NCBI GenBank assembly: GCA_025358085.1
Contig: JANYKT010000149.1
Location: 1 to 63,325 of the forward strand
Length of the DNA: 63,325 nt
Direction: 5' to 3'
Origin: Deltaproteobacteria bacterium
GTDB taxonomy: Bacteria; Myxococcota; Myxococcia; Myxococcales; 40CM-4-68-19
The notes under the pieces are model-generated. The model had not been told where the DNA came from and searched no databases. It saw only the letters and a list, made by a program, of their open reading frames with translations. Below, piece by piece: positions 31,378 to 58,129 of the stretch; within the stretch, counting starts at the first letter, position 1; every line of letters starts with the position of its first letter. The position numbers were made by a program, and so were the translations under genes.

Positions 31378-31447
31378 GAAATGGTTCAAAGGCTCGCGGA
31401 GGCGAAGGTGTCTGGCGGGGCAGCTTGGTTGCACGAGGGGGCGGGAT

Positions 31448-31756: not shown

Positions 31757-31788
31757 CCAATCTTTTCCAACCCGGGCTCCAAACGACC

Positions 31789-33714: not shown

Positions 33715-33718
33715 GCCG

Positions 33719-34213
33719 ATGCTCCTCGCACTCCTCATCGCCGCGCCCTTCGCTGCCGCGGCCCAGCCGCAGCAACCTTGGCTGGAGACCTCCTTCGGGC
33801 CGATGGTGCTCCACCGCAACGGGGGGCTTGACAGCGGGCCCCTGCTGCGAATGCAGATTGCCTTTCCTCTTGGCGAGCGGCTCGCCGGCGAGCTGTGGGC
33901 CGCGGGTTCGCTGGAGAGCGCGCCGCTCGGCCGGCCGGGAGATCAGGCGCTGATCGGTGGCGGCGTCGCGGCGCGGTTCCTGCTTCATGAGTTCGATGCC
34001 GAGGGGCGCTTCGCACTCTGGGCCCACGGCGGCGCGGGTTATCTGGCGGCGGCGGCGGGGACCGGTCTCTCGGGTCCCGCTGGCTTTGGGGGCGCGGCTT
34101 TCGTCTTCCAGCCGCTCATCCGGCGGTTCGCGGTGGGGCTTGAGGCGGACGCAATCGGGGCCCGCTCGGCCTTCGGATTCGCGCTGCTGCCGACGCTGCG
34201 CTGCGCTCTTTAG
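33719..34213 (+). CDS. Small outer-membrane barrel, NfsH/GltH position
   Basis: 164 residues, 4 nt after the FHA-AgmX gene. The signal MLLALLIAAPFAAAAQ is followed by about eight amphipathic strands (ETSFGPMVLHRNGGL, EGRFALWAHGGAGYLAAAAG, FAVGLEADAIGARSAFGF) ending in a beta strand (LPTLRCAL). It completes the eight-gene NfsA-H/GltA-H order. The family is fast-evolving, so position carries most of the weight. Confidence 0.77.
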   Translation: MLLALLIAAPFAAAAQPQQPWLETSFGPMVLHRNGGLDSGPLLRMQIAFPLGERLAGELWAAGSLESAPLGRPGDQALIGGGVAARFLLHEFDAEGRFALWAHGGAGYLAAAAGTGLSGPAGFGGAAFVFQPLIRRFAVGLEADAIGARSAFGFALLPTLRCAL

Positions 34214-41905: not shown

Positions 41906-42865
41906 ATGACTACAAACAAGGCCGCCGCTATCGGAGTCGCGCTCTGCGCGTGCGGAGGCACGCTGTTTGTCGACCCGAACCCGCCCCAGTTGCGGCGCGT
42001 GGTGGCGCAATACAGCACGCATGGCGCAGCCGAGCCGCTCATCTACCTGTCGCTCCTCGATCTCTACGTCGAGGACCCCAACACCTGCGGCTTCGCAAAA
42101 AACTGGTTTTCCGATGTCACGCAAAAGGCCATGCAGGAGACCAGTTCAAATCAGCTCGCGCTTGCAACACAGGATCTGGCCCCGCAGTGCACGCAGCGCG
42201 AAGGCGTGATTCTCGATACCGAGAGCATCCTGCGAGACGTGCAGCTGCTGATGGCCAACAATCCGCTTTCGCACCTCCGACTGGTGATCGTGTATGCCAA
42301 CAATCTCAATCTCTCGTTGCCCCCTGAGCGCAGCGAGAGTCTGAGGACATTGTCCGCGCGTCTCACCGCGCTGCAGGGGTGGCCGCCTCTTCTTTGGCTG
42401 GTGTCGTCCAAGGTCATCGCTAAAGAAGTATTCGCCGATGCCACGTCGGATTGGACCTACGCCGGCGACCCGGCAATGGTGACGGCCTTCCGGGCCTCGT
42501 TGAAGCTGGCACTGCCTCTCCAGAGCGAAGTGGGAACGGTCAGCCAACTGCAGCCGCTACTCAGCAGCTCCGACCTCGGGCGTGCGCAGCAATTCAAGCT
42601 GTGTTCTTCAGACCCGGAGGCAACGCTGCCCGGGGTGCCCGTGCTGGGAATGGCGGCGACACTGAATCGCTCCACGCCGCCGGCCTGGCAAATCACGCTG
42701 CCGCCGCAGATCGCCGTGACCAAGGTGGGCTTTACCCTGCACACGGTGAAAGCGCAGGTGGAACTTTGTGACGGCAACTGCGATCGCTATCTGAAGATCG
42801 ACCCTGACCAGCTGCAGCAGAGCTGGAATGTCTTTAGAGGATGCATGCTGGAAGGAGCGAAGTGA
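41906..42865 (+). CDS. Lipoprotein, first gene of the Mot/Fli-like envelope operon
   Basis: 319 residues from ATG 41906 (an upstream in-frame start at 41864 lacks a signal). The signal ends GVALCACGG, giving two possible lipobox Cys. The mature part is alpha/beta (AAEPLIYLSLLDLYVEDPN, LSHLRLVIVYANNLNLSLPP, GWPPLLWLVSSKVIAKEVF), reminiscent of a von Willebrand A-like fold. Several Cys follow, including VELCDGNCDRYLKID. No MIDAS motif is obvious. It overlaps the next gene (GTGA). It could be an outer-membrane adhesin or lid of the complex; function is not known. Confidence 0.7.
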   Translation: MTTNKAAAIGVALCACGGTLFVDPNPPQLRRVVAQYSTHGAAEPLIYLSLLDLYVEDPNTCGFAKNWFSDVTQKAMQETSSNQLALATQDLAPQCTQREGVILDTESILRDVQLLMANNPLSHLRLVIVYANNLNLSLPPERSESLRTLSARLTALQGWPPLLWLVSSKVIAKEVFADATSDWTYAGDPAMVTAFRASLKLALPLQSEVGTVSQLQPLLSSSDLGRAQQFKLCSSDPEATLPGVPVLGMAATLNRSTPPAWQITLPPQIAVTKVGFTLHTVKAQVELCDGNCDRYLKIDPDQLQQSWNVFRGCMLEGAK

Positions 42866-43440
42866 GGGCGCTCGCGCTGGCGCTGTTCGTCTCCCTTCCG
42901 GCGCTCGCGCAGACGCGAGTCGAACCGCGCCTGCTGATCAAGGAGCACCACTTCTTTGCCAGCGGAGGCCTGACCTGGCTTGCGCGCGGCGATTATTACG
43001 ACAGCCCCGGCTTGATTGCGCAGCTCTCGTATTACCCGATCGAGCAAGGCGGGCTCGATGTGCAGATCGCCGGACTTTTTTCCTTTCTCAGCACCTCCGG
43101 CGAGGAGGTCTTTCGCGTCAGCGGATTGGTCCCCGATGCACATATGCCGCAGGGCCTTTTGCTGGTTGGCTGGAGGCACACGCTGGCCTACGGCAAAGCG
43201 GCCATCGGTTCGCAAATCTTCCATTTTGATCTGCAAGGTGCCGGGCACATAGGCACGCTCATCACCGACCGCGCCTGGACACCCGCGCTGTCGTTGTCCG
43301 GTGGCCTGCTGGTGCGGATGAGCGACCGGTTCTTCGGCCAGCTCGATCTCGGGCTCCTGACCAATTACGAAAACCGGCAGCAATCGTTTCCGGTCAATTT
43401 CGGCTTCCTGCCGCTCTTGTCGATCGGTATCGAGCTGTGA
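42862..43440 (+). CDS. Outer-membrane beta-barrel
   Basis: 192 residues from GTG 42862, with AAGGAG at a good distance; ATG 42841 is an alternative. The signal RALALALFVSLPALAQ is followed by strands similar in style to the barrels of region 2 (HFFASGGLTWLARGDYYDSP, IGTLITDRAWTPALSLSGGL, RFFGQLDLGLLTNYENRQQS) and an ending FGFLPLLSIGIEL. The family looks like the myxobacterial barrels that partner Nfs/Glt proteins. GTGA overlaps join it to both neighbours. Confidence 0.78.
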   Translation: MRALALALFVSLPALAQTRVEPRLLIKEHHFFASGGLTWLARGDYYDSPGLIAQLSYYPIEQGGLDVQIAGLFSFLSTSGEEVFRVSGLVPDAHMPQGLLLVGWRHTLAYGKAAIGSQIFHFDLQGAGHIGTLITDRAWTPALSLSGGLLVRMSDRFFGQLDLGLLTNYENRQQSFPVNFGFLPLLSIGIEL

Positions 43441-45086
43441 TTGCGCTGCTCCTCGCCACCTTCGCGCAGCTTTTCTGGCAGCACGAGCTGGGCCTGCTCC
43501 GGCGCGAAATCCTTGATGACCGCGGCATGGGTGAGGAGCGCATGCTCTTCGACGACCTGCTCGCTCTCGGCACTTGCGCGCCGCTGTCCAGGTTGGCGGA
43601 GCCTTCGCCCATGCGGCAGCTGGTGCGGGTCGAGGCGGCGCGGCGGGTGCGGCTTGGGAAGGCGGCGGGCAGCTCGCGCACGGTCTGGCGTGACCTGCTG
43701 CGGCCGGGGTTTTTCTCGGTTGCCATCTTGAATCCCAAGCCGTCGAAGGCCCTTTACTGGATCGACGAGAAAGAGAAGTGGCCCAACGAAACGCTGCTGG
43801 TGCAGTCGCCCGCATGGCTCTGCGGCAAGCTGCCGGCGTGGTCCGCGGAAGAGCAGATTACCCAGGAACTCATCTCCTCCCAGGAGCCGCGCACGGCGGC
43901 CTTGCTCGCGTACGAGCGGGCCGCGGTGCAATTTCGGGCGGGGAAAGCGCTCGAGCTGCACGGGCTGGAAACAGAGCAGCTGCCCGCGAACCTGCGGCCC
44001 TATGCGCGCTTCCTGCGGCTGGAGGCGGGCGCAGACCCGCGCGAGGGATTCGCCGAACTTGCCGCGGTCCTGCCGGAACCCATCGTGCTCGACCGCGCGG
44101 CGCAGGCGCTCTACGACGCGGGCCGCTTTGCCGAGGTGGTGAAGCTCACCGAAGGGAAGCCGCCGCGCTTCTCCTTATGGATGCGTGCGCTGTCTTTGCT
44201 GAGGCTCGGCCGCGAGGACGAGATGCTTGACGCGCTGGCCCGCGGATTCGCCGCCAGCTCCGCAGGATTCGCCCCCGGAGGACCCGCCTCCGGAGGACCC
44301 GCCTCCGGAGCCGGGGCTTCCGGTGTCTCGGGTTCTGGAGTTGCCAGTTCCGGCGACGCCAGCACCGAGCCGCTGCGCGAACTCGCGATGCAGACGCTCG
44401 CGCGGCGACCGCTCGATGAAAAGAAGCTCGCGTTTTTCGCGGTCAAAGGGGCGGAGGAGGCGACTCTGCTGCAGTTGGGTCAACGCGCGCTGGCGGCCGG
44501 CAATGTCGCTACGGCGCGGGCGGTGGCGCAGGCGCTCGCGGACGAGCCCAAAGCGCGCAACTCGGCGGCAGGGCTGGCACTGCAAGGCGAGTCGGCGTTT
44601 GTCTCGGGCGACGCCGAAGCACTGCGCGACGCGCTGGCGCTGCTCTTCCCTGCCGGCGGCGGCTACGGTCGCGGCGCCTTGGCGGGCCCCAAGGCGCCGC
44701 GGGTTCCCGGGCAGCTGCGCGTCGCCGACCGCGACGAGCGCGACCATGCGGCGGTCGCGCTGGCGCAAGCGCTGGCAGGGCGCGCGCACGATCGGCCGGA
44801 GCTGGCCGCGCTGCTCGAGGAGACGTTCGCGCGCCTGCGCGAGGGCGTGCATATCCGCTACGCGCGCGAGATCGACAGCGTTGCCGAGACCCTGCACTCG
44901 ACGGTGGCGCGCGATCTGCAGCGCGTCGCGGTCGGCGAGATCAAGATCGCAAATCCGCCGCAGCCCCCGCCGCCGCCCAAAGCGGAGCTGGAGCTGCCCG
45001 AGCCTTTTTCCCTGCTGGCCATCCCCGTCGATGACGGGTCGCTGCGCAGCTGGTTTGCAGGACCGGAGGTCGTAGATGCGCATTGA
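43437..45086 (+). CDS. Periplasmic helical-repeat protein
   Basis: 549 residues from GTG 43437. A weak signal (VIALLLATFAQLFW) precedes a mainly helical body that includes TPR/Sel1-like pairs (AALLAYERAAVQFRAGKALE, LDRAAQALYDAGRFAEVVKL). A low-complexity linker from a DNA repeat lies at about 44,265-44,345 (PGGPASGGPASGAGASG), and a long helical part follows. The C-terminus is Pro-rich (NPPQPPPPPKAELELPEPF). Size and place resemble GltC-like periplasmic proteins, but no diagnostic motif is seen. It overlaps the next gene by 11 nt. Confidence 0.75.
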   Translation: MIALLLATFAQLFWQHELGLLRREILDDRGMGEERMLFDDLLALGTCAPLSRLAEPSPMRQLVRVEAARRVRLGKAAGSSRTVWRDLLRPGFFSVAILNPKPSKALYWIDEKEKWPNETLLVQSPAWLCGKLPAWSAEEQITQELISSQEPRTAALLAYERAAVQFRAGKALELHGLETEQLPANLRPYARFLRLEAGADPREGFAELAAVLPEPIVLDRAAQALYDAGRFAEVVKLTEGKPPRFSLWMRALSLLRLGREDEMLDALARGFAASSAGFAPGGPASGGPASGAGASGVSGSGVASSGDASTEPLRELAMQTLARRPLDEKKLAFFAVKGAEEATLLQLGQRALAAGNVATARAVAQALADEPKARNSAAGLALQGESAFVSGDAEALRDALALLFPAGGGYGRGALAGPKAPRVPGQLRVADRDERDHAAVALAQALAGRAHDRPELAALLEETFARLREGVHIRYAREIDSVAETLHSTVARDLQRVAVGEIKIANPPQPPPPPKAELELPEPFSLLAIPVDDGSLRSWFAGPEVVDAH

Positions 45087-46278
45087 AGCCGTGGTGGCAG
45101 CGCTACTTGCAGTGCTGTCGTGCGCGACAGCAGCGCTCGCCCAGGAGAGGGAAAACGGGTACGCCAACGACATCTTCGCCCCGCCCCAGGAGCCGGAGGT
45201 AAAGCCAGAAGTCAAACCAGCGCCCGCGCCGGAAATGCCGCAGGGCGCTGAGCTGCACGCCCGCAAGAAGCCGGTCGAGCACCTCAAGCTCCTTGACGGC
45301 CACCTCATCACCGGCGATGCGGTCTCGGCCGACGACGTGGTGGACGAGATGGTGGACGAGCTCGCCTCCGACCTGGCCAAGCTGGGCGCGGTGCACATCA
45401 GCCCCGTCCTGCTCGACCGCGTGCGCGTCTCAGACAATATGAATCCGCAATATTCACATATCCTCGAAGCGCGGCTCGCGTCGGCCATCTTCCGGGCCGC
45501 GAACGTGGCGCTGGTCCGCTGCGCGGAGTGCTGGACCACGCGCAGCCGCGTCGAGCAGAGTTCGTATGTGATTACCCGCGGCCTCGCCAGCCGTGCCGAT
45601 GTGCAGAAGGTGGCCGCCCATTACGGGGCGCGGACCTATCTCGATGTCTCGCTCACGCTGCACGAAAATCCGAGCTCGCTGGCCATGGACGTGGAGTTGG
45701 TGCGCGCCGAGGACTCGTCGATTGCGTTCGCCGAGTATTACCGGCTCGATCCCGACAAGGCCATCCTCTACCGCGGCGCCGATACCGCACAGCATCGCGA
45801 AGCCCGGCTCCAGGCGCTGCAGGACAAGGTCAACGCGCGGCCCCGCTACGGGGTCACCGTCGATTTCGGCGCCATGTTGCTTCCCTCGGACGCGGGCTCC
45901 CTCTGGGGCGCGCTCGGCCGCTACCAGCTGACCGAAAAGTTCGGCAGCGACGAGCAATATGATGCCGGGCTGTCGCTGGCGGGCTTCTTCAATTCGACGT
46001 CCTTCGCGGGCGGCATCCTCGGCGCGGTCTGGCAGATGCGCCTCACCGAGGGCGGCGTCTGGGCGCCCGAGTGGACAATGGGCTTCAATGGCGGAGCCTT
46101 CATTTCCGGCAACGCCGGCAACTCATTCATCGTCGGTGGCAAAGTGCGTGCGCTGATGGGGGCCCGCATCTCGATGGAAGCCGGACTCAATTACCTCGTT
46201 CCATTCCAGATCAAGGGCAGAGGCACCACCTACGGTGGCGTCGTTCCCGAATTTGCCGTGGGGTTCGTATGGCGCTGA
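45076..46278 (+). CDS. CsgG/FlgO-like domain fused to a C-terminal beta-barrel
   Basis: 400 residues. The signal peptide MRIEAVVAALLAVLSCATAALAQ is followed by a Pro/Lys linker. A domain at about 75-250 reads as CsgG/FlgO/TolB-N type: ILEARLASAIFRAANVALVR, then ITRGLASRADVQKVAAHYGA, then YLDVSLTLHENPSSLAMDVE. The last 130 residues alternate as strands (YGVTVDFGAMLLPSD, FAGGILGAVWQMRL, ISMEAGLNYLVPFQI) and end PEFAVGFVWR with a terminal aromatic. FlgO/FlgT-type proteins support sheathed-flagellum outer rings, so an outer-membrane bushing is an attractive reading, but it is inference. Confidence 0.75.
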   Translation: MRIEAVVAALLAVLSCATAALAQERENGYANDIFAPPQEPEVKPEVKPAPAPEMPQGAELHARKKPVEHLKLLDGHLITGDAVSADDVVDEMVDELASDLAKLGAVHISPVLLDRVRVSDNMNPQYSHILEARLASAIFRAANVALVRCAECWTTRSRVEQSSYVITRGLASRADVQKVAAHYGARTYLDVSLTLHENPSSLAMDVELVRAEDSSIAFAEYYRLDPDKAILYRGADTAQHREARLQALQDKVNARPRYGVTVDFGAMLLPSDAGSLWGALGRYQLTEKFGSDEQYDAGLSLAGFFNSTSFAGGILGAVWQMRLTEGGVWAPEWTMGFNGGAFISGNAGNSFIVGGKVRALMGARISMEAGLNYLVPFQIKGRGTTYGGVVPEFAVGFVWR

Positions 46279-46919
46279 GATCGCTTGTCTGGATTCTGCT
46301 GCTTGCCGGTGGCTGCGCGAGCATGAACAACCATAAGCTGGTGGTGCCGCCCGAGATGCGGCGCCCTCTCTTCACCGGCGCGCCCGCGAAGCCTTTGGTG
46401 ACTCCATCCAGGCCGGGCGCGGCGGTGACTCCAGGCAGGCTGGGCGCGGCGGCGGTGCCGGCAGCGCTGGTGCCGGTGAAGCCGATGCTGCCCTCGGCCG
46501 ATCCGGCGCAGCGCACCGTGCTCCGCCTCGCCGAGAACGGCCGGCTCTGGGAGGTCGAACTGCCCGAGACCACCGGCGCCTATGAGCTGCGCATTCCGCT
46601 CGAGGACACCCGCGGCACGCAGGCCGACGAGAAGCTGCTGGCGGGAGGATCCGCCGACCCGGCGAAGAAGAGCTATCTGGCCGGCCTGGCGCACGTCCGC
46701 GAACTCTATGATACTCGCAAGTACGAACTCGCTTTCATTGATTTGAATGACCTCGAGCAGGGATATCCCAATGACTCGCGGCTGCTGGCAATGAAAGGCA
46801 CTCTCTACCTGAAGCTCGGCAAGACCAGGCTCGCGCGCGAGACCTGGCAGCACGCGGTCCTGCTCGACCCCAACGATACCCAGACCGCCGAAGCGCTGCG
46901 CGGATTGAAGGAGGAGTAA
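46269..46919 (+). CDS. TPR lipoprotein
   Basis: 216 residues from ATG 46269, overlapping the previous gene by 10 nt. The lipobox is unambiguous (WILLLAGGCASMNN). A Pro/Ala/Val linker follows, then a small beta segment (RTVLRLAENGRLWEVELPET), then two or three TPRs (LYDTRKYELAFIDLNDLEQG, LAMKGTLYLKLGKTRLARET). It is similar in architecture to GltE/AglT but half its size. Its stop shares a base with the MotA-like start (TAATG), so the two are tightly coupled. Confidence 0.82.
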   Translation: MALRSLVWILLLAGGCASMNNHKLVVPPEMRRPLFTGAPAKPLVTPSRPGAAVTPGRLGAAAVPAALVPVKPMLPSADPAQRTVLRLAENGRLWEVELPETTGAYELRIPLEDTRGTQADEKLLAGGSADPAKKSYLAGLAHVRELYDTRKYELAFIDLNDLEQGYPNDSRLLAMKGTLYLKLGKTRLARETWQHAVLLDPNDTQTAEALRGLKEE

Positions 46920-47689
46920 TGCACGCCATCTTTGGATTGACCGGTTTTGCCATCGTGCTCGCCATCACCATCGCCCTGGAGCAGGCCAATGCAGCCTTTA
47001 CAGGTTTGTTCTATGGGCCGGCCTGCCTGCTACTGGTGGCCGGTCCCCTCTTCATCTCCCTGGTCTCGCACAAACTCGATGAACTCTCGGGGACGTTGCG
47101 CATGGTGGGCCGGGCCATCCGCTTCGCACCTGCCCGCTCACGCGAGTCTCTTTATGAAGAGCTGACACGCTTCGCCGCCGAGGTCCGTCGCGGCCGCCCC
47201 GCCGAGGCATTGGCCATCGCCGACAGCTCCGACAACGACCTGCTGCGAAAACTCGCGCCGCTGGTGGTGCGTCAATACAAGGCCGATGAGCTCGAGCGCA
47301 GCGCCGCCACCGCCATCGCCGTCGCCGCTTCCTCGATGAAGCGCAGCGAGGACGTGCTGACTTCGCTCGCGCGCGTGGCGCCCGCGGTGGGCCTGGTCGG
47401 GACCACGCTGGGCCTCATTTCGCTGCTCAAAGACCTGCACAACTTCGAGCAGCTCGGACCATCGATGGCGCTGGCCCTGCTGTGCACCATGTATGGCCTG
47501 TTGCTCGCCAATGCCGTCTACCAGCCGCTCGCGCGACTGGTTCATGTGCATTCGAGTGTGCGACTCGAAGAAGCGCGGCTGCTGCTGAGGGCGCTGCTCC
47601 TCCTCACGGAAGGCAAGCCTCTCGCCGATGTGCGCGCGCTCTTCGACCAGCCAGCGGGCGAGCTCCCGCCGCAGCTCGCGGTGGGCTGA
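46919..47689 (+). CDS. MotA/PomA-like stator protein
   Basis: 256 residues with four TM helices (about 1-20, 29-50, 148-170, 181-205) and a cytoplasmic loop between TM2 and TM3. The MotA/TolQ/ExbB core is clear: APAVGLVGTTLGLISLLKDL then LGPSMALALLCTMYGLLLAN. The overall order, with a loop containing YEELTRFAAEVRRGRPAEAL and an ending LLLLTEGKPLADVRALFDQP, fits MotA/PomA better than TolQ. MotA forms the pentamer that rotates around MotB when ions flow. The 3 nt gap to motB-like supports a joint stator unit. Confidence 0.9.
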   Translation: MHAIFGLTGFAIVLAITIALEQANAAFTGLFYGPACLLLVAGPLFISLVSHKLDELSGTLRMVGRAIRFAPARSRESLYEELTRFAAEVRRGRPAEALAIADSSDNDLLRKLAPLVVRQYKADELERSAATAIAVAASSMKRSEDVLTSLARVAPAVGLVGTTLGLISLLKDLHNFEQLGPSMALALLCTMYGLLLANAVYQPLARLVHVHSSVRLEEARLLLRALLLLTEGKPLADVRALFDQPAGELPPQLAVG

Positions 47690-47692
47690 TCG

Positions 47693-48319
47693 ATGGATCC
47701 CTTCCTCATCGAGGAGCCGCCCGAGCCGCAGCAGGATGAACTATGGCTGATCAGCTATGCAGACTTATTGACTCTGCTGGTCGGCTTCTTCGTCCTCATC
47801 ATCGCTTCGATGCCGTTGAAGATGGCGCGCTTCGAGCGCGTCGCGGCGGCCATCTCCGGCTCGAAGGAAGCGCCGCTGCAGGACCTGCGCGAGAAGGTCG
47901 ACTCGCTGGTCGCGCGCTCGCCGGAGCTGCGCGACCGGGTGATTACGCACGATGACGCCGAAGGCCTTGGTATCGAGTTCAAGGACGCCATGCTCTTTGA
48001 TTCCGGCTCGGCCGAAATCAATGGCGGCGGCAAGACGGCGGTGGCGCAGATCGCGAAGCTGCTGCACGACTTGCCCGGCCGGGCCATCACCGTGGAAGGC
48101 CACACCGACGACGTGCCGATCGCCACGCCGCAGTTCCGCAGCAACTGGGAGCTGTCGTCGCAGCGGGCCATCAACGTGCTCTCGGCGCTGGAACAAAGCG
48201 GCGTCCAGCGCGAGCGGATGAGTGCGCGGGCCTATGCGGACACGCGCGCCCAGTCGAAAGAGGGAACAGTCGAAAGTCGCCGCACCGCCAATCGCCGCGT
48301 CGTCATCCGGGTGGAGTAG
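47693..48319 (+). CDS. MotB/PomB-like stator protein with OmpA peptidoglycan-binding domain
   Basis: 208 residues. The single TM helix carries the family's essential acidic residue (ELWLISYADLLTLLVGFFVL, Asp24). A plug/linker region leads to an OmpA_C-like domain with LFDSGSAEINGGGKTAVAQI, ITVEGHTDDVPIATPQFRSN and ELSSQRAINVLSALEQSGV. Asp24 would carry the ion (proton or sodium). TolR/AglS-type proteins lack this OmpA domain, so this is a MotB-class, wall-anchored stator and not an AglRQS motor. Confidence 0.93.
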   Translation: MDPFLIEEPPEPQQDELWLISYADLLTLLVGFFVLIIASMPLKMARFERVAAAISGSKEAPLQDLREKVDSLVARSPELRDRVITHDDAEGLGIEFKDAMLFDSGSAEINGGGKTAVAQIAKLLHDLPGRAITVEGHTDDVPIATPQFRSNWELSSQRAINVLSALEQSGVQRERMSARAYADTRAQSKEGTVESRRTANRRVVIRVE

Positions 48320-48323: not shown

Positions 48324-49958
48324 ATGCTCGCAATCATCTTCGCCGTCGCCCTCGCAGCGCAGCCATCACTCACAAAAGTCGGCCATGACGCCGAGGAGCG
48401 CGGCCGCGCCGAGGTCGCCGACCTGCTCAAGTCGCTCTGTCCCGAGCAGTGCATCCTGCTCTCGGTGCAGGCGCGCGTGGAGTCGCAAGAGCTCCCCAGC
48501 GACCCCACCCCGGGCTTCGATGCCGCGGCCTCTCCGAGCATTCCCGAGCTCCGGTCCGTCGATGCAAGCGTGCTGGTGGACTCGCGGCTGCCGGCCCCCT
48601 TCCGCGCGCGGGTGAAAGCGCTGGTCGGGCAGCGACTGCTTGCCCTGGGCGTGCCGGTAAAAGTCTCGCTGGAGCAGGTCTCGTTTCCGCAAAAGAACCC
48701 GGCGTATCTCGACCCGCCGCCTCCGCTGAAGCCCCCGGAAGCGAAGGTGCCGGACGTGCCCAAGCCCGAGATCGCGGCGGCCTCGCCCGTGGCAGCCATG
48801 AAGCTGGACGAGCGGCTGCTCGAGCATGCGCCGCTCCTGGCGGTGGTGGCGATGCTGGGGCTGGTGGTGGTGGTGCTGGGCGGGCTGTTCTTCCTCGCGG
48901 CGCGGCCGCGGCCCGAGCCACAGCCAGAGCCGCTTTATGACTTCGCGCCTGAGCCAGAGCCGGCGGCGCCGGCTGAGGGATTTCCGGTAGCGCGGCTGCG
49001 CAAGCTCGAGAAGCAGCTGGTCGATGAACGAGCGCTGCGCAATGCGCTGGTGCGCGAGGCGCTCGGCCGCGGAGAGTACGCGCTGGTCGCGCGCTGGGTG
49101 CGCGAACTGGGTGATTTCCTGCTCGAGGATGTGCGCGGTGACGGTGCGCTCGCGGCGGCGCTTGCGGGAGTCGCGGTCGAAGTGGTCAAGCCCATCGAGG
49201 CCGGGGCACGCACGGCAAGCCTGCAGGAGTTGGAAGGGCGGACCATCGCGGCGCGGCTGTCGCGCGCGGGTGAAGATGACGCCTTTGCCTTCCTCGAGGG
49301 TGTGCAGCCCGACGCGTTCGCGGCGGCGAGCGCGGGGCTCTCGGCGGGCGCGCGGGAGCTGCTCCTGCGCTTTGCTCCCGCGCATCTGCGGAGCGTGGCG
49401 CTGCGCGATCTCGATGCGGCGGCGCGGCAGGAAATTGCGCTCGCCTGGGCGCGGAAGCCGCAGGTCAGCAAGAGCTACGCGCTGGCGGCAGCCGACGAGC
49501 TGCGCGCGCGGCTCTCGCAGCTGAGCGCCGCGCCCCCGGCCGATCGCGCGCTGTCCGATCTGCTCGACACGCTCTCGCGTGCGGAGCAGGACGCGCTGGT
49601 TTCCCGGCTGCAGCGCGAAGCCGGCAGTGGGGGCAGGGCCGCGGGGCTGATCACTGAATCGACACTGTTCAGCGCGCCGGCCGACGCGGTGGCTGCGGCG
49701 GCTCTGCGCATGGCGCCGGAAAAGCTGCTGGCGTGTCTCGCGGGCGTGGACGCGCTGGTGCTCGACGCGGTCCTCTCGGCGCTGCCGCCAAAGCTCGTGG
49801 CCGAATTGAAAGAGGAGCTGTCGTTGGGCTCGCGTGGCGCGGGCGACTTCCACGCGGCGCGGCGCGAGCTGCTGGCCCGGCTGCGCGAAGAGTTGAATAA
49901 GCGTAGTTTCGCTGGGCCGGGACTTCCGGCGCGGCCCCGTCTCGGTATGGTGGAGTAA
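48324..49958 (+). CDS. FliF(C-terminal)-TM-FliG-like fusion (rotor-like protein)
   Basis: 544 residues from ATG 48324. After a short signal, residues about 22-125 resemble the FliF periplasmic ring domain: AEVADLLKSLCPEQCILLSV and SVDASVLVDSRLPAPFRARV, then KALVGQRLLALGVPVKVSLE. A Pro-rich linker and TM helix (about 170-193) follow. Residues about 220-528 read like FliG: AFAFLEGVQPDAFAAASAGL, ALSDLLDTLSRAEQDALVSR, then LLACLAGVDALVLDAVLSAL and PPKLVAELKEELS. FliG torque-helix charges appear conservatively kept (Lys490, Glu497, Glu498). The EHPQ motif is degenerate. Adjacent motA/motB genes support a rotor role. Remote similarity read by eye. Confidence 0.72.
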   Translation: MLAIIFAVALAAQPSLTKVGHDAEERGRAEVADLLKSLCPEQCILLSVQARVESQELPSDPTPGFDAAASPSIPELRSVDASVLVDSRLPAPFRARVKALVGQRLLALGVPVKVSLEQVSFPQKNPAYLDPPPPLKPPEAKVPDVPKPEIAAASPVAAMKLDERLLEHAPLLAVVAMLGLVVVVLGGLFFLAARPRPEPQPEPLYDFAPEPEPAAPAEGFPVARLRKLEKQLVDERALRNALVREALGRGEYALVARWVRELGDFLLEDVRGDGALAAALAGVAVEVVKPIEAGARTASLQELEGRTIAARLSRAGEDDAFAFLEGVQPDAFAAASAGLSAGARELLLRFAPAHLRSVALRDLDAAARQEIALAWARKPQVSKSYALAAADELRARLSQLSAAPPADRALSDLLDTLSRAEQDALVSRLQREAGSGGRAAGLITESTLFSAPADAVAAAALRMAPEKLLACLAGVDALVLDAVLSALPPKLVAELKEELSLGSRGAGDFHAARRELLARLREELNKRSFAGPGLPARPRLGMVE

Positions 49959-49960: not shown

Positions 49961-50959
49961 ATGCGCAAAGCGTTGCTGATTGCGATGTTGTTCGCCGTCC
50001 CCGCTTGCGTCATCATCGATGACAGCCTCGACGCCGGAACGCCGCAACCGCCCAACCTGGCCGACGCCAATGTTTGCGCTCCCGGCAGCCTTGATCCCGC
50101 CTGCAACATCGGTGACGGCGGTGGTGGCGGCGGCGGAGGCGGCGGAGGCGGCGGAGGCGGCGGAGGCGGAGGCGGAGGCGGTGGCAGCAGCGACGGCGGC
50201 GTCCCGAAAGTCGGTTTCCCCGGCAGCGGGAAAAATGGCGACTCTGGCACCGGTGTCCTCTGGCTGGTTCGCATCGATCGCGGCTCGGCCAATGTCGCCG
50301 ACGCCGAAGAATTGCTGATCCACCAGACCATCGCCGCGCTCACCTCTGCCGGCCTTGGCGTCACTTCGATGACCGTCATCTCGCTTTATGACGGGCACTC
50401 CATCTGGTCCGCGATCGGCGCGGACGCCGGCAAACAGCCGGGGCTCGCCGATGCGCTTCGACGCGAGGCGCAAAGCGCCTCCACTACACCCCCGCCCGCC
50501 TGCGCCGCGTCTACCCTTGCCAACCTCCCCTGGAACTTCCTTCCGCGGTCGTCTGCGCTGCTGGTCGGCGTCATCGACCACGGCGCGCGGACGCTGGGCC
50601 TGGACGCCTGCGACAGCAGCGCCCTCTCTTCCGACCCGCAGCGGTGGCAGCACTTGAATTCAAGCCTCCCGCTCTCAAGGGTGCAGACGCGCTTTGCCCT
50701 CCTCGCCACTCCGGAGGAAGGCACGGTCGATCAGATGCGGCAGCGTTGCCTCGCCGTAGCCGGCTTTCCCAGCCAGGCTCTCGATGCGCTCCAGCCGTCT
50801 GCGCTGCGCTACTTCGGGCCGCTCGCGGCGACGCTCTCCGCGGCGCAGCCTGGTCTATCCACTCAAGCTGACCTTTGCGATGCCTTCGGAAACGGCTGGC
50901 CGGCCACGGCAAGCTCGATGGCAACCCAATGGGCAGCGGTGCTGGCGCGGCTGCAATGA
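49961..50959 (+). CDS. Lipoprotein with polyglycine tether
   Basis: 332 residues. Lipobox LFAVPACVII, then a short Cys-containing segment, then 23 consecutive Gly (50117-50185), then an alpha/beta domain. That domain begins TGVLWLVRIDRGSANVADAE and includes LTSAGLGVTSMTVISLYDG and SALLVGVIDHGARTLGLDA, so a VWA-like fold is possible, though the MIDAS motif is not canonical. Three or more Cys may pair. The flexible tether would let the domain move away from the membrane. It overlaps the next gene by ATGA. Comparison with CglB-type adhesins is suggestive only. Confidence 0.72.
   Translation: MRKALLIAMLFAVPACVIIDDSLDAGTPQPPNLADANVCAPGSLDPACNIGDGGGGGGGGGGGGGGGGGGGGGGGSSDGGVPKVGFPGSGKNGDSGTGVLWLVRIDRGSANVADAEELLIHQTIAALTSAGLGVTSMTVISLYDGHSIWSAIGADAGKQPGLADALRREAQSASTTPPPACAASTLANLPWNFLPRSSALLVGVIDHGARTLGLDACDSSALSSDPQRWQHLNSSLPLSRVQTRFALLATPEEGTVDQMRQRCLAVAGFPSQALDALQPSALRYFGPLAATLSAAQPGLSTQADLCDAFGNGWPATASSMATQWAAVLARLQ
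50117..50185 (+). repeat. GGC/GGA microsatellite encoding 23 glycines
   Basis: A run of 69 nt made of GGC, GGA and GGT codons, much of it as a GGCGGA 6-mer. It encodes 23 Gly in a row inside the lipoprotein gene. Lengths that are not multiples of three would shift the frame and remove the C-terminal domain, so the tract could vary the protein or switch it off by slippage. Confidence 0.97.
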
Positions 50960-51744
50960 ATCGCGGGAACCCGCGTCTAGCCCGGCAATCCGCGCGGCGC
51001 GCGTCCCGGCCCACCTTGCGGTCCAGCGGTCCGGTGTCGCGGACTAGCGCCGGGGCGCTGCGCTCCTTTGCGACGCTCCCGCCGCGTACCTCGACGCGGC
51101 GGTCCAGCGATTCTTTTAGTCGCAAACCCGCGTCGCGCGCTGCTGCGGGCGCGTCGCTTCGACCGCGGTCTCGTTCACTGGCGGGGCGCGCTGGTGCCAA
51201 GTCTCCCGGGCGCAAGCGCCGGTGGCTCGCGGCCCTGCTGCTGCTCGCGCTCGCGTTCTTCTGGCTGCGGCCCAAAGCGTTTTCTCCGCCGCTGACAGCC
51301 GCAAAGTTGCCGGCCGTCGTCACCAAGCCGCCAGACCACCACGCCACTGCGCCGCCCGTCGAGCACAACCCCGGCACCGCGCCCGGCACGCCCAGCACAA
51401 AGCTGGCATCGCAGAAGAAGCTCGTCGCCCCGCCGCAGAAGAAGGCTATTGTGTCCGTTGCGCGCCCCGACGGGATCTCGCGCGAGCTTCTCCTCGCCGC
51501 GGTGCAGGCTCGTGCGCCCACGCTGCGCGCATGTCCGCTGCCGCCCGGCGCCCCGGCCCGCGTGTCCGCGCGTCTGCGCGTCGCCCACGCGGGTGAACTG
51601 CGCACTGTCCAGTTTATCAATCCCGAACCGCTGCCGCACTCGCTCGCCGAGTGCCTGCGCACCACGCTGCAACACTGGTCATTCAAGGATTTGCCGCTCA
51701 AAAGCGACGTCGAAGTGCTGGTAGATTTTCTGCTCGGCGCTTGA
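50956..51744 (+). CDS. TonB/AgmX-like protein with basic cytoplasmic arm
   Basis: 262 residues from ATG 50956 (ATGA overlap). The first 90 residues are very basic and Ser/Arg-rich (RQSARRASRPTLRSSGP, SRKPASRAAAGASLRPRSRS). One TM helix follows (RWLAALLLLALAFFWL), then a Pro/Lys periplasmic linker. The C-terminal domain has ARAPTLRACPLPPGAPARVS, then ELRTVQFINPEPLPHSLAEC and LRTTLQHWSFKDLP. That pattern of two Cys and a W/F near the end is shared with AgmX/PglI C-terminal domains. It may contact the outer membrane. It closes the operon. Confidence 0.78.
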   Translation: MNRGNPRLARQSARRASRPTLRSSGPVSRTSAGALRSFATLPPRTSTRRSSDSFSRKPASRAAAGASLRPRSRSLAGRAGAKSPGRKRRWLAALLLLALAFFWLRPKAFSPPLTAAKLPAVVTKPPDHHATAPPVEHNPGTAPGTPSTKLASQKKLVAPPQKKAIVSVARPDGISRELLLAAVQARAPTLRACPLPPGAPARVSARLRVAHAGELRTVQFINPEPLPHSLAECLRTTLQHWSFKDLPLKSDVEVLVDFLLGA

Positions 51745-51843: not shown

Positions 51844-52284
51844 ATGAAAAACGCCAACTCGACCTGGGTCGTAGTCGCGGATGCTCGCGCTGCCCGCATC
51901 TTCAGCTTCACTGACAAGAACGGAGAGTGGAAGTTGCACGAGACCGTGCAAGGGGACGGCACCGGGAATCCGCCCAAGACGGCGGGCTCGGTGAGCAAAG
52001 CTTCCGAACACAAGGGGGCTTTACACGCCCATGGCGAAAACGTGCCGAAGGAGACCCAGGAGCGGCGCTTCGCTCATACGCTCTCGCACGTCCTGGAGCG
52101 CGGCCACACTGACAATGCCTTCTCGAAGCTTATGCTGGTGGCCCCGCCCAAGCTCCTGGGAGACCTGCGCGAGAACCTCAGCAAAGGCTTGCTGCCAATC
52201 ACCGTGGCAGAAGTGCACAAGGACTATTCCCACTGCGGCGTGGAAGAGCTGATGCGCCTATTGAGAAGCGAGCTTCCCGCTTAG
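51844..52284 (+). CDS. Host-attachment-family protein (PF10116-like)
   Basis: 146 residues. N-terminus NSTWVVVADARAARIFSFTD is the start of the family named 'protein required for attachment to host cells', an archaeal/bacterial eRF1-like fold. Other family landmarks are ERRFAHTLSHVLERGHTDNA, KLMLVAPPKLLGDLRENLS and VAEVHKDYSHCGVEELMRLL. Despite the name, the biochemical role is unknown. The start ATG 51844 has no clear Shine-Dalgarno. Its 3' end overlaps the convergent hybrid kinase gene by 27 nt. Confidence 0.9.
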   Translation: MKNANSTWVVVADARAARIFSFTDKNGEWKLHETVQGDGTGNPPKTAGSVSKASEHKGALHAHGENVPKETQERRFAHTLSHVLERGHTDNAFSKLMLVAPPKLLGDLRENLSKGLLPITVAEVHKDYSHCGVEELMRLLRSELPA

Positions 52285-55200
52285 CAATTTGAAGACGTGC
52301 TGGACATCGATCGGTTTGACCAGGTGCTCATCGAAGCCGGCCGCTTTCGAGAGCATCCGGTCCTTTGGCTCGCCATACCCGGTAATGGCGATGAGGCGCA
52401 GTTCGGGAATCGATTGCTGGGCACGAAGCTGCCTGGCAAGCTCATAGCCGTCCATGCCGGGCAGCCCGATATCCAGAAGAGCAACGTCCGGAGCGAAAGC
52501 CAACCGGGCCTTGAGCGCGGCCAGGCCGTCATGGGCCACGACGACCACGTGCCCGTCCAGACGCAGCAATTCCGCAAGGAGCGTCGCGGCGTCTTGATTG
52601 TCGTCAACGAGCAGGACCCGCGAGCCTACTGTCTGTACCGGGGGGTTAGCGACTACGAGTTTAAGAGTTGGGCTGTCCGGAATTTCCGGGTCGAGTGACG
52701 CTGCCAGACGAACCACAAACTCGGCCCCCTTCCCAGGACCCTCGCTGCGCGCTTCGACTTCTCCGCCATGCAGGCCGATCAGGCTCTTGACGATGGTGAG
52801 TCCGAGGCCCAGCCCCCCCTGCGCCCGGTCGGAGGCCTGCCCTCCCTGCGCGAATGCATCAAAGATGCGCGGGAGGAGCAATGGGTCGATGCCCATTCCA
52901 GTGTCCGCGACCCGGACTGCGATGGTTTCATCTTTTCTGTTCGCGGAGATGGTGATGGTGCCACCCGGTTCGGTGAACTTGGCGGCATTGGTAAGCAGGT
53001 TCGAAAAGACCTGGGCGAGCCGGAGCGGATCTGCCTGCAGCCGCAACCCGGGAGGGACATCAAGAACAAGCCGGTGGCTGCGTTGCTCCAGAAGGGGATT
53101 GGCGATCTCGATTGCATTCGAGAGGACCACGCCGATTTCCACCGATTGAATCTTGAGCTGCAGCTTGCCGCGGGCGCTCCTCGAAACATCAAGCAAGTCG
53201 TCCACCAGCCCAACCATGTGCTTGGCCTGGCGGGCAATGACGGCGCGTTCGCGAAGAGAGCCCTTTTCGCCGCGCATATCCATGAGCTGGAGCGCCGTAA
53301 GGATTGGTGCCAGCGGATTGCGGAGCTCGTGGCCCAGCACGGCCAGGAACTCGTCCCGTGCCCGCGCGCTGGTCTCGGCAAGCTGGCGGAAGTGCTCGTC
53401 CGCGTGGCGCGCCTTTTCGAGGGCCCGGGCAGCTTCCAGGCCGCGGGAAATCTCGAGCTGTACCCGGACCCGGGCGATCAATTCGCGGGCCGAAAATGGT
53501 TTGACGATGTAATCGTTGGCACCAATCGCGAGTCCTTCCGCCACCGCCTCCTCGCCGGCTCTCGCGGAGAGCAGCAGGATGGGCAGCCCCCGGGTCTCCG
53601 GGGTCGCGCGAAGCTGTCGAGTCAACGCCATTCCGTCCAACTCAGGCATCATTACATCAGCGATCAACAGAGCGGGTGCGTGGCGCCGGACGGCCTCGAG
53701 CGCCTGCTGCCCATTCGCGACCACTTCCACATTCCAATGAATGGAGAGGAGCCGCTTCAGATACTCTCGCATATCCGCGTTGTCGTCGGCCAGCAGCAGG
53801 CGGAAACCGGTAGCCCGTGTCTCGCCCTCGGTCACAGGGACCACAAGTGCATCGCCCGCAGGAGCGTCGGCCGGCAGCCACGAAAGCGCATCGTTGACGT
53901 AAGCGGTGGGCCCGGTCGGAACGGATTCGACCTCCCTGTCGGCCTCGACCCGGTCCGTCGGCAGATGCGCCGAGCCTTTGGGGATAGACACCGTCATGCA
54001 CGTTCCGACCCCCGGCTGGCTCTGCGCCTCGATGCGCCCGCCATGCAGCTGCACCAGATCACGAACTAGCGCCAAGCCGATTCCGGTCCCTTCATGGCTG
54101 CGCGCGCGCGCTTCGCGAACGCGGTGAAAACGCTCGAAGACCCGCGGCAGTTCATTCTCCGGGATACCGACGCCGGTGTCTTGTACGCTCAATTGAATCA
54201 AGTCGCCGGCCATACCAAGGATGACTCGCACCGAGCCTTCAAACGTGTGCTTGAAAGCATTCGAGAGCAGATTAAGCACGATCTTTTCCCACATATCCCG
54301 ATCCACGAAGGCGGGTTCGGGAAGCGGCCTGACGTCGACGATCAGTCGCAAGCCTCCCTTTTCCATGGCCGCGCGAAACTGACTGGCGAGGTCGGTGGTC
54401 AACCGCGCCAGATCGGTCTCGCGGTAGGACGCTTCAACCCGCCCCGCCTCCATGCGCGAAAAGTCGAGCAGCGAATTGACCAGCTTGAGCAGGCGCAGCT
54501 CATTCCGGTGCACCATCTTGAGCGCTTCGCCTTGCAGTGAGCAGCCCGGAGCCGCCAATGCATCCTCGGTCGGTCCAATCATCAGCGCCAGTGGCGTTCG
54601 GAATTCGTGGCTGACATTGGAGAAGAAGGTAGTCTTGGCGCGATCGATCTCCGCCAGCGCGTTGGCGCGCATCTTCGTTTCCTCATAGGCGAGAGCGTTA
54701 CGGATGGCGGTGACGACCTGTGCCGCACTCAGCTCGAAAAAAGTGCGATAGCCATCGTCAAGGTGGCGATGAGGGCTGAGTCCGGCGATCAGCACGCCAT
54801 AAGGACGCGCCTGACCGGGAGCTGCCAGCGGAAGTACGATGGCCGAGCCGGGTGGCACTGCCCATTGTCCGGTAGGCAGCGGACCGTAGCGGGAGTCCAG
54901 GTTGTCGATGATTTCTATATTTTGCTTCTCGAGCGCCTGTGCCAGAGGCCAGATCGGCGCCGGCCCGCCATTCGCCAGTTCAATCAATGTCGGTCGCGCG
55001 ATTGCCGGGTCGTTGCCGAAACCTGAAGACGCTGTCAACGACGCGTGGCAACTATCGTCGAACAGATAGAAGAGCGAGAAGGGCACGTCGGCTGGATTGG
55101 AGTTCAGCGCGGCGGCTGCGTTCTCGCAAGCTTCGTGAATCGATTTGGCCTGCGTCGCGCGCGCTCCCATTTCGCGCAAGGTTCGCAGCTGCCGCTCGGA

Positions 55201-55731
55201 TTGGACCTGTGCGGTGGTTTCCGAAACGGTGGCGAGTACTCCGCCGATACCGGTTCCTGCCACCGTCTCGTCGGGCACGGGACTGTAGGCAACACGAAAA
55301 TGCGTTTCTTCAAAAAAGCCGCTGCGGTGAATCAGCAGCGACAGGTCCTCGGCCCCCGTGGCCGGGCCGCCGGCAAAGGGGCCTTCGATCATCTCACCGA
55401 TGATGTTCCAGATCTCAGCCCAGCATTCCCTGCCGGATTGACCCAGCGCCGCCGGATGCTTGGCGCCGAGAATGGGCACGAATGGATCATTATAGAATTG
55501 AACCAGCCCGGGACCCCACCAAAGGCTGAGCGGGAAACGATTGCGGAGCACCAGGCCCACAGTGCTGCGGAACGATTGCGACCAGCATGAGACCGGACCA
55601 ACAGGGGTCGACGACCAGTCGATCCCCCGGGTCATTTCGCCCATCGCGCCGCCGCCGGCCAGACAATCAAAGCGATTGGCTGACTCCAGGTCTGGCGCCG
55701 GGGCGCGCTGCGCGGCCTCAAATTTTGTCAT
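52258..55731 (-). CDS. Hybrid sensor kinase with two kinase cores and two receivers
   Basis: 1157 residues, no TM helix. Order: PAS-like region (about 35-175), GAF (about 190-350), HisKA with FFSNVSHEFRTPLALMIGP (His375), HATPase (GTGIGLALVRDLVQLHGGRI), receiver with LLIADVMMPELDG (Asp692), a second HisKA with DEFLAVLGHELRNPLAPILT (His801), a second HATPase (GLGLGLTIVKSLIGLHGGEV) and a C-terminal receiver RVLLVDDNQDAAT...LLDIGLPGMDG (Asp1087). All catalytic residues appear intact. ATG 55731 has AGGAG upstream. No output domain is present, so signal must pass to another protein. Confidence 0.95.
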   Translation of the reverse strand: MTKFEAAQRAPAPDLESANRFDCLAGGGAMGEMTRGIDWSSTPVGPVSCWSQSFRSTVGLVLRNRFPLSLWWGPGLVQFYNDPFVPILGAKHPAALGQSGRECWAEIWNIIGEMIEGPFAGGPATGAEDLSLLIHRSGFFEETHFRVAYSPVPDETVAGTGIGGVLATVSETTAQVQSERQLRTLREMGARATQAKSIHEACENAAAALNSNPADVPFSLFYLFDDSCHASLTASSGFGNDPAIARPTLIELANGGPAPIWPLAQALEKQNIEIIDNLDSRYGPLPTGQWAVPPGSAIVLPLAAPGQARPYGVLIAGLSPHRHLDDGYRTFFELSAAQVVTAIRNALAYEETKMRANALAEIDRAKTTFFSNVSHEFRTPLALMIGPTEDALAAPGCSLQGEALKMVHRNELRLLKLVNSLLDFSRMEAGRVEASYRETDLARLTTDLASQFRAAMEKGGLRLIVDVRPLPEPAFVDRDMWEKIVLNLLSNAFKHTFEGSVRVILGMAGDLIQLSVQDTGVGIPENELPRVFERFHRVREARARSHEGTGIGLALVRDLVQLHGGRIEAQSQPGVGTCMTVSIPKGSAHLPTDRVEADREVESVPTGPTAYVNDALSWLPADAPAGDALVVPVTEGETRATGFRLLLADDNADMREYLKRLLSIHWNVEVVANGQQALEAVRRHAPALLIADVMMPELDGMALTRQLRATPETRGLPILLLSARAGEEAVAEGLAIGANDYIVKPFSARELIARVRVQLEISRGLEAARALEKARHADEHFRQLAETSARARDEFLAVLGHELRNPLAPILTALQLMDMRGEKGSLRERAVIARQAKHMVGLVDDLLDVSRSARGKLQLKIQSVEIGVVLSNAIEIANPLLEQRSHRLVLDVPPGLRLQADPLRLAQVFSNLLTNAAKFTEPGGTITISANRKDETIAVRVADTGMGIDPLLLPRIFDAFAQGGQASDRAQGGLGLGLTIVKSLIGLHGGEVEARSEGPGKGAEFVVRLAASLDPEIPDSPTLKLVVANPPVQTVGSRVLLVDDNQDAATLLAELLRLDGHVVVVAHDGLAALKARLAFAPDVALLDIGLPGMDGYELARQLRAQQSIPELRLIAITGYGEPKDRMLSKAAGFDEHLVKPIDVQHVFKLLSGKLASQ

Positions 55732-56068: not shown

Positions 56069-58129
56069 TTACGGCGCCGGCTTCGTCAAGGTCACCTGGT
56101 CCAGCGCCACCGCGGTCTGGGCCAGGAGACGGCCATTCATCGAGGCGCCCGTCTCGAGCTTGATCGCGGTCTGCGAAAGGATGATTCCCTCGAAGTGCGC
56201 GGTGGTTCCGATATCGACCGCCCCTGCGACCTGCCAGAAGACATTCCGCGCTTTGACCCCGCCGGTCAGGAAAACATTCTTCGCCGCGCTCATGGTGAGG
56301 TCGCCGGAGATTTGGAAGATGAAGACGTCGGTGGCACTGCCCGTCAGCGTGACGTCGGAGCCGATGGTCACCGTGCTGGTCCACTTATACAGGCCCGGCG
56401 TCAGGGTCTGCCCGCCGATGGCGCCGGTGAGCAGCTCGATGAAATCCGGCGTGGGCCGGCCGGCCGCGTCCGTATAGCCAGTCTGCATATCGCTGACGGC
56501 GGTGGTCAAATTGGACGGCGTGGGCGGCGCCTGGTCAGCCGCGTAGATCTTCCCGGTGACCTGCGGCGAGGTGGCGTAGCCGGTCGCGTCGGTCTGGCTG
56601 AAGCCGGTGATGTAGCTCTCGGCGGCCGGGCTCAGTGCGATGTCCCCGGTGATCGCCGAAGCGGGAACGGTTGAGATGGCCGATTGCGCGAGAATGACGA
56701 AGTTGGCGGACGAGCCGAGCAACACTGGCGAGAGGCTGGCATGCGACCCCGAGGTGAACCCCCAGGTGTAGTCGCTCACCAGCGCATTGCCGGCCAGGTC
56801 GGTGACCCCGCTGTTACCGCCCTTGAGCCGGGCCTGATAGTTGGTATTGGCGGCCAGCGCCGTCGTCCCCTGGAAGTTCGCCACCTTGTTCTGCTGGTCG
56901 AAAAAGACCGTTCCGGCGACGGCGACATTGCCCGGTCCGGACAAGGTGAAAGTCGAATTATTGATACTCTGCGGCGACATTGCCTTGCTGAAGGTTGCTT
57001 GAATGCTGGCCGTGGTGAGCACGCCAGTCGCGGCCGGCAGGGGGCTCGTGGTCGCCACGGTGGGCGGGACGGTGTCGGCGGTGGCGCCGGTGGTGAAGCT
57101 CCAGGTGTGATCGGCGGCCAGGGCGTTACCGGCCAGATCCTTGATTCCTGCGGCGATGGTGGCGGTGAATTGCTTGCTGATGGCAAGCGCGGTCGCCGGT
57201 TGGAAGGTCGCGGTCACCCCCGAATAGGTCACGGTGCCCGGAACCGCGGCGCCGCCGGTCGCTTTCAAAGTGAAGGTGGCATTGGTGATGCTGGCGGACG
57301 CAACGGGCTTGCTGAAGGTCGCGGTAAGAGCGCTGTTCGTCACCACCGAAGTGGCGCCGTCGCCCGGAATCGTGGAATTGACCAGCGGTGCCATCGTGTC
57401 CGAGGTGGCGCCGGTGGTGAAGCTCCAGGAGTAGCTGGCCAGTGCATTGCCGGCCAGATCCTTGGCCGACACGATTGTCGCCGTATAGCTGGAGATGGCG
57501 GTGAGCGCGGCCGTGGGCGTGAAGAGAGCCGTAATGCCTGCATAGGCAACGAGCCCCGGTACCGGGGTGGTGCCGCGCTTCAGCGTAAAGCTCGCCGCGG
57601 TAATGGTCGAGGCATCGAGTGCCTTGCTGAAGGTCACCGCGACGCTGGTTCCGAGCGAGACACCGCTCGCGGAATTCGACGGAGTGGTCGAACTGACGGA
57701 GGGTCTCGTGGTGTCGGCCGCGGTCCCTGTCGTTGCCTGCCACGAGTAGGCGGCGACCATCGCCTTGCCGACTGCGCTCTTGGCGCCGGTGCTGATGTTC
57801 ATCGTGTAAGCGGTATTGCTCGCCAGGATCGCGCCGGGCTTGAAGAGCCCGGTCACTCCTGAATACGAGACGCTGCCGGCCACCGCGGACCCGCCATTTG
57901 CCGACATGGTGAAGGTCGTCGTGTTGATCGTTGCCGGGTCCATGGGTTCGCTGAAGGTAACGGCGAAGCCGGTGTTGGTTGCGACGCCCGTGGCCGCGTT
58001 CGCCGGCGCAGTGGCGCTGACGGTCGGGCCGGCAGCAGGGGTGTTGTTGCCGCCCGAGCAGGCGGAAAGGGTTGCGACGAAGAGCGTCGCCATTCCAATG
58101 CAAACTCCGGAAGCCGATGTACGAGTCAT
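56069..58129 (-). CDS. Ice-binding (DUF3494) lipoprotein with Big_5-type Ig-like repeats
   Basis: 686 residues. The lipobox is LFVATLSACSGG. Four Ig-like domains of about 105 residues follow, each with the Big_5 landmarks (GVATNTGFAVTFSEPMDPAT, GVSLGTSVAVTFSKALDAST, DLAGNALASYSWSFTTG). The C-terminal about 215 residues are a DUF3494 solenoid: ANFVILAQSAISTVPASAIT, then FIELLTGAIGGQTLTPGLYK and FIFQISGDLTMSAAKNVFLT. DUF3494 proteins bind ice or act as adhesins holding cells to ice. ATG 58129 has AAGGAG. The lipid anchor and Ig stalk suggest surface display. Confidence 0.93.
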   Translation of the reverse strand: MTRTSASGVCIGMATLFVATLSACSGGNNTPAAGPTVSATAPANAATGVATNTGFAVTFSEPMDPATINTTTFTMSANGGSAVAGSVSYSGVTGLFKPGAILASNTAYTMNISTGAKSAVGKAMVAAYSWQATTGTAADTTRPSVSSTTPSNSASGVSLGTSVAVTFSKALDASTITAASFTLKRGTTPVPGLVAYAGITALFTPTAALTAISSYTATIVSAKDLAGNALASYSWSFTTGATSDTMAPLVNSTIPGDGATSVVTNSALTATFSKPVASASITNATFTLKATGGAAVPGTVTYSGVTATFQPATALAISKQFTATIAAGIKDLAGNALAADHTWSFTTGATADTVPPTVATTSPLPAATGVLTTASIQATFSKAMSPQSINNSTFTLSGPGNVAVAGTVFFDQQNKVANFQGTTALAANTNYQARLKGGNSGVTDLAGNALVSDYTWGFTSGSHASLSPVLLGSSANFVILAQSAISTVPASAITGDIALSPAAESYITGFSQTDATGYATSPQVTGKIYAADQAPPTPSNLTTAVSDMQTGYTDAAGRPTPDFIELLTGAIGGQTLTPGLYKWTSTVTIGSDVTLTGSATDVFIFQISGDLTMSAAKNVFLTGGVKARNVFWQVAGAVDIGTTAHFEGIILSQTAIKLETGASMNGRLLAQTAVALDQVTLTKPAP

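Follow-up and report, generated by a model that had tools for sequence, protein, structure and literature searches.

Among the described systems closest to the locus analyzed here are two motors. One is the AglRQS motor with its Glt or Nfs partners (Myxococcus gliding, spore coat), in which an ion-driven stator acts on trans-envelope proteins; the Agl motor is of the TolQR class and has neither an OmpA domain nor a FliF/FliG rotor. The other is the flagellar core of MotAB or PomAB stators with FliF and FliG, in which the rotor-stator contacts pair R90 with D288-D289 and E98 with R281 (PMC12505986). Mutant or engineered FliF-FliG fusions have been described in Salmonella and Vibrio, and a Salmonella fusion mutant is motile (PMC6079021), which indicates that a fused rotor can turn. 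Apart from Anaeromyxobacter, the myxobacteria with genomes available in 2008 had no genes for flagella (PMC2330069). Word searches of open PMC papers, preprints excluded, found no earlier description of a non-flagellar machine made of MotAB and FliF/FliG.

The window, a stretch of 63,325 nucleotides from a myxococcal bacterium (GenBank JANYKT010000149.1), carries a ten-gene operon at 41.9 to 51.7 kb in the order ORF321-ompB-p549-p400-TPR lipoprotein-motA-motB-rotor-p332-p289 (Table 1). We consider it probable, at roughly three chances in four, that this operon encodes a self-contained, flagellum-free, ion-driven rotary motor that passes torque to outer-membrane parts. Sequence comparison establishes the class of the stator, the domain make-up of the rotor, the conserved contact residues, the conservation of the operon, and the absence of flagellar genes. 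Like the flagellar core, the operon has an A subunit with transmembrane (TM) prolines and Arg90, a B subunit with the Asp, plug, and OmpA domain, and FliF-RBM3-like and FliG middle and C-terminal domains with an acidic pair on the torque helix. Unlike that core, it joins the FliF and FliG portions in a single polypeptide, with no RBM1/RBM2 and no first FliF TM helix; it contains envelope-protein genes and has no FliM/N, export gate, or filament genes. The known mutant and engineered fusions are full-length and sit inside a complete flagellum, whereas the fusion found here is natural, short, and flagellum-free.

Table 1. Features of the ten-gene operon, with the FliF-FliG fusions of the type 2 loci (positions are those of the window, except where a locus number is given)
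Feature	Position	Strand	Basis
ORF321, secreted lipoprotein, lipobox-like LCACGG, first operon gene	41906..42865	+	ORF; homologues in relatives' operon
ompB, predicted outer-membrane beta-barrel, weakly OMP_myx_plus-like	42841..43440	+	NCBIfam TIGR04565; syntenic
p549, 549-aa protein	43437..45086	+	Syntenic in close relatives
p400, LpoB/CsgG-like periplasmic domain (low confidence) and 8-stranded outer-membrane barrel	45076..46278	+	AlphaFold
TPR lipoprotein, lipobox LLAGGC, one-base overlap with motA start	46269..46919	+	Weak TPR matches
motA, MotA-like stator subunit, flagellar (FIT) class, 256 aa	46919..47689	+	Pfam MotA_ExbB 6e-18; Arg90 codon 47186-47188
motB, MotB-like stator subunit, 208 aa	47693..48319	+	Pfam MotB_plug 5e-10, OmpA 6.5e-18
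Rotor, FliF-FliG fusion, 544 aa, with signal peptide, RBM3-like domain, single TM and FliG M+C	48324..49958	+	Sequence profiles, Pfam, AlphaFold model, comparison with PDB
RBM3-like (FliF S-ring) periplasmic domain, residues 14-122	48363..48689	+	AlphaFold alpha-beta-beta-alpha-beta; PDB comparison
Rotor single TM helix, residues 169-192	48828..48899	+	AlphaFold helix H169-192, hydrophobic sequence
FliG middle and C-terminal domains, residues 317-528	49272..49907	+	T. maritima FliG_C match; acidic pair E497-E498 at 49812-49817
p332, secreted lipoprotein, Gly-rich stretch	49961..50959	+	Synteny in close relatives and in two distant ones
p289, laid out like TonB, with a TM, a Pro-rich stretch, and a C-terminal domain weakly of AgmX/PglI type	50953..51744	+	Start codon uncertain; syntenic
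Type 2 fusion	L147:7918-9468
Type 2 fusion	L148:9116-10609
Type 2 fusion	L149:9676-11364
Type 2 fusion	L150:9460-11343
Type 2 fusion	L151:6861-8462
Type 2 fusion	L101:6583-8208

A stator of the flagellar class

Judged by its sequence, the stator is of the MotAB/PomAB class and clearly unlike the motors of the TolQR/ExbBD type. The nearest NCBIfam model for MotA is PomA (2e-27), which scored 96 bits versus 29 for TolQ, and comparison with PDB gave flagellar MotA/PomA at 1e-22 and ExbB at 2e-5. At the position of PomA R88 (E. coli R90), each of the 11 close relatives has Arg, and Arg or Lys is present in 15 of 15 aligned proteins, which also keep P173 and P222; the latter proline is missing in seven of seven ExbB/TolQ-type proteins. 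Glu98 in the E. coli numbering is replaced by Leu in 11 of 11 close members. PomA T158 and T186 are kept and T185 is Cys, positions from which the ion type is ambiguous. MotB consists of an N-terminal TM helix with Asp24 (codon 47762-47764), invariant in eight aligned relatives, a short plug/linker, and an OmpA peptidoglycan-binding domain. Both genes are found in synteny across genera at 56 to 71% identity, too strong a pattern to be due to chance. The initial annotation had described a wall-anchored MotAB-class stator, distinct from motors of the TolQR type, with an ion-carrying Asp24 and a complete OmpA domain in MotB and a PomA-like loop in MotA, and the comparisons above bear it out. The one-base overlap that it noted is likewise present: in TAATG at 46917-46921 the stop of the lipoprotein gene and the ATG of motA share one A.

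In the MotA tree, the 11 close members group together in a single clade (97/97). These and four distant members lie on the flagellar side, separated from ExbB/TolQ by a 100/100 branch, and the five other MotA/ExbB proteins of the window's genome fall in the ExbB/TolQ clade. One long-branched row (L089, genome G098) also joins the group to which the operon's MotA belongs, hereafter type 1. Because the genome has no flagellar locus and the proteins form a clade of their own, they do not appear to be ordinary flagellar stators taken from a nearby flagellar locus, the origin that the initial annotation had named as telling against its reading.

The same annotation had put the stator in the midst of Nfs/Glt-like genes. 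There is indeed a Glt/Nfs-like cluster at 24431-34213 (24.4 to 34.2 kb), with a barrel gene, GltC-, GltE-, and GltG-like genes, and a weak CglE-like gene, all except the barrel below the curated (equivalog) cut-offs, but it is separate, lying about 7.7 kb upstream of the operon, and no Glt/Nfs genes were found near the operon in any relative examined. This cluster, together with the distant resemblance of ompB to Glt-type barrels (OMP_myx_plus) and of p289 to AgmX/PglI tails, might point to an ordinary AglRQS/Glt gliding motor or a paralogue of one. Such a motor would not have a flagellar-class stator whose B subunit carries an OmpA domain and whose A subunit falls outside the ExbB/TolQ clade, nor a FliG-type rotor, and the operon's proximity to Glt/Nfs genes is conserved in no relative examined; of the explanations considered, we give this one the least credence.

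A predicted FliF-FliG fusion directly after motB

The most important part of the operon is the gene directly after motB, overlooked by the initial annotation, which encodes a predicted FliF-FliG fusion. A profile of nine rotor members, searched against every PDB sequence, had FliG as its five highest-ranking matches (best E value, 0.0014). Pfam FliG_C matched nine of nine members at an E value of <0.1, the best being 1.4e-10. The rotor of Archangium lansinium is above the curated FliG_C cut-off, which was passed in seven of the eight genomes searched, the single FliG_C gene in each being the rotor itself. The window's own rotor falls under that cut-off (14.4 versus 23.3 bits), and its predicted homology rests on relatives, profiles, and the AlphaFold model. 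In profile-profile comparisons the rotor matched flagellar FliG at 5.6e-6 over 265 columns and the type 2 fusions described below at 7.7e-10. In the tree of C-terminal domains, the type 1 proteins form one clade (100/99) on a long stem.

The AlphaFold models were built from 8 and 6 sequences, and that of the rotor has a mean pLDDT of 71.8 and a pTM of 0.34. It matches FliG M+C in PDB, its C domain resembling T. maritima FliG_C with a Z score of 12.0 (rmsd 2.0 over 87 residues). The RBM3-like domain resembles FliF RBM3 with a Z score of 11.0 (rmsd 3.2 over 97-100 residues), and MamB/MamM domains nearly as well (Z 10.6), as this is a common small fold. Profile comparison with E. coli FliF gave no match, and Pfam YscJ_FliF_C was found in type 2 fusions only. 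About 150 residues lie between the signal peptide and the single TM helix, in place of RBM1/RBM2 and the two-TM layout of FliF. The motif CPEQC, at 48438-48452 in the periplasmic domain, occurs in all eight full-length aligned members and perhaps forms a disulfide.

Aligned with FliG of E. coli MG1655, the rotor has E497/E498 at the positions of D288/D289, and this pair is invariant in 11 members; the position of R281 is Arg or Lys in 8 of 11, and K264 and R297 are not kept. Two of five torque charges of FliG are thus lost, as is MotA E98, and the operon contains a TonB-like protein and outer-membrane barrels. These features would fit a Tol/Ton/Agl-like force transducer, with MotAB acting directly on envelope proteins and the FliG-like protein serving as a scaffold that holds the stators, with no rotating ring. 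We regard this as unlikely, for MotB has the wall-binding OmpA domain and plug of flagellar stators, Arg90 of MotA is retained together with its acidic partner, the rotor combines an S-ring-like domain with FliG M+C, and the rotor-stator pairing is repeated at the type 2 loci.

Other genes of the operon

The annotated coupling of the stator to envelope lipoproteins is reflected in the conserved operon, which encodes such lipoproteins along with beta-barrels. The ompB product matched NCBIfam TIGR04565 at 2.4e-5 in the window and 1.4e-7 in A. lansinium, both below the cut-off, and p289 matched NF033768 at 0.0067, again below the cut-off, in the window and in A. lansinium. The predicted p400 barrel resembles NspA (Z 17.8, rmsd 2.5) and its other domain LpoB (Z 9.3, rmsd 3.2); p400 is syntenic in distant members as well. 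Pfam TPR matches of the lipoprotein preceding motA are weak in the window and clear in A. lansinium, and in type 1 loci and most type 2 loci the gene before motA encodes a TPR protein. ORF321 had no Pfam match, and p549 matched no family in Pfam or NCBIfam.

The resemblance of the LpoB/CsgG-like domain to lipoproteins of wall synthesis and curli export, and the appearance of p332 and ORF321 as secreted lipoproteins, suggest a variant in which the same rotary motor serves polymer or protein secretion or envelope maintenance. However, Pfam and NCBIfam searches of the operon recognized no gene for a transporter, a synthase, a glycosyltransferase, or a substrate. This output, which is compatible with the motor part of our main reading, is a possibility that we hold only tentatively.

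Three further genes lie past the operon: a Host_attach/baeRF family 12 gene just past it (51844-52284), a gene for a 1,157-aa hybrid histidine-kinase-like protein directly past it on the opposite strand (52258-55731), and a gene for a protein with an ice-binding-like domain (PF11999, 2.9e-72) and Ig-like repeats (56069-58129).

Conservation of the operon and absence of a flagellum

Relatives' loci were found by rotor alignment; single-sequence MotA patterns gave no match in a contig scan. The ten-gene order is the same in relatives of other genera, in A. lansinium, and in the relatives of the latter (G090 and G091). The core of p400-TPR-motA-motB-rotor is syntenic in four distant Myxococcota (G155, G158, G162, and G165), in two of which it lies on a short contig. 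After the core, G155 and G158 have p332, p289, ORF321, and ompB in a changed order.

No FHIPEP (FlhA/SctV), FliM/N, or flagellin gene was found in the window's genome or in the five relatives searched; some of these genomes are drafts, and each absence holds for the assembly searched. The FHIPEP genes of A. lansinium and G036 score best as SctV and not as FlhA, with the G036 gene and one of the two in A. lansinium just below the SctV cut-off. The hat-like structure of PMC9380563, considered as a candidate, was set aside, as that source links it to the export gate of the flagellum, a component missing here.

In two distant genomes, G158 and G162, a flagellar-type FliG is encoded apart from the operon; the two can therefore occur together as distinct entities. 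Their co-occurrence, and the homology to flagellar parts, could also be taken to mean that the operon holds spare stator and rotor parts for a flagellum, or flagellar relics. Against this stand the retention at phylum depth of the whole operon with its non-flagellar envelope genes, the 56 to 71% stator identity among close members, the invariant EE pair, and the absence of flagellar genes both from the window's genome and from five relatives, and we judge spare parts or relics very improbable.

A second type of locus

Fusions of FliF and FliG also occur at loci that we call type 2. Their order is FliF-FliG fusion-TPR-MotA-MotB-MotB' in five genomes (G031, G045, G063, G099, and G193) and fusion-MotA-MotB-MotB', with no TPR gene, in G164. 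A profile of the type 2 fusions finds FliG in PDB at 4e-36; Pfam FliG_C was detected in all six and YscJ_FliF_C in four of the six. G031 has a type 2 fusion and an ordinary FliG in one genome. Type 2 loci are the clearest evidence for natural FliF-FliG fusions with putative stators of their own in Myxococcota. They are like the operon in having adjacent genes for a FliF-FliG fusion, a TPR protein, MotA, and MotB, but differ in their canonical FliG_C, two MotB genes, and other neighbors; no p400, p332, ORF321, or ompB was found at them. The MotA tree allows more than one order of type 1, type 2, and flagellar stators: a single clade of type 1 with type 2 was not rejected (p-AU, 0.44).

Two other loci (L155:6621-9940 and L156:5626-8948) have MotA-MotB followed by a helical protein with a signal peptide and a TM helix, with p400-like genes upstream, and may represent a third type. 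The helical protein did not match a small FliG_C profile, which is too weak a test, as it also missed the window's rotor. Many weak FliG_C matches, to proteins of 450 to 690 aa, were seen in other Myxococcaceae-like genomes. One of them, L152:3604-5076, has no obvious TM helix, and its genome encodes a flagellar FliG as well; the idea that such matches are MgtE transporters was not borne out by this one, the single example inspected, which looks like a soluble FliG-like protein.

Proposed motor and its significance

In the rotary motor that we favor, MotA5MotB2 stators would be held to the peptidoglycan by the OmpA domain of MotB and driven by ion flow past Asp24. They would turn a ring of the FliF(RBM3)-TM-FliG(M+C) fusion, with MotA Arg90 engaging E497/E498 on the torque helix of the rotor as R90 does with D288/D289 in flagella. 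Lacking an export gate, FliM/N, a rod, and a filament, the motor would send the torque of the ring across the envelope via p289, the TPR lipoprotein, p400, and ompB to the outer-membrane or surface lipoproteins ORF321 and p332. Ring assembly, rotation, the torque path, and the output are all what we infer for these proteins. Most likely, though this is a guess, the output is that components of the cell surface are moved, in the service of surface motility or adhesion.

A broader proposal, which we consider conceivable though doubtful, is that the type 1 and type 2 FliF-FliG/MotAB sets constitute one ancient, stand-alone class of Myxococcota motor that is independent of any export apparatus. 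Such motors might derive from a flagellum that was reduced long ago, or might have branched off alongside the flagellar motor before the latter joined type III secretion. If the main reading is true, these loci make it testable whether the flagellar motor can exist apart from type III secretion, an old point in the debate on flagellar origins. The torque core of the flagellum would then be used alone to drive another envelope machine, and a minimal rotor-stator pair, with a one-chain rotor and no FliM/N, would be available for torque studies. Soil myxobacteria, some of them culturable, would then possess a previously unrecognized motor.
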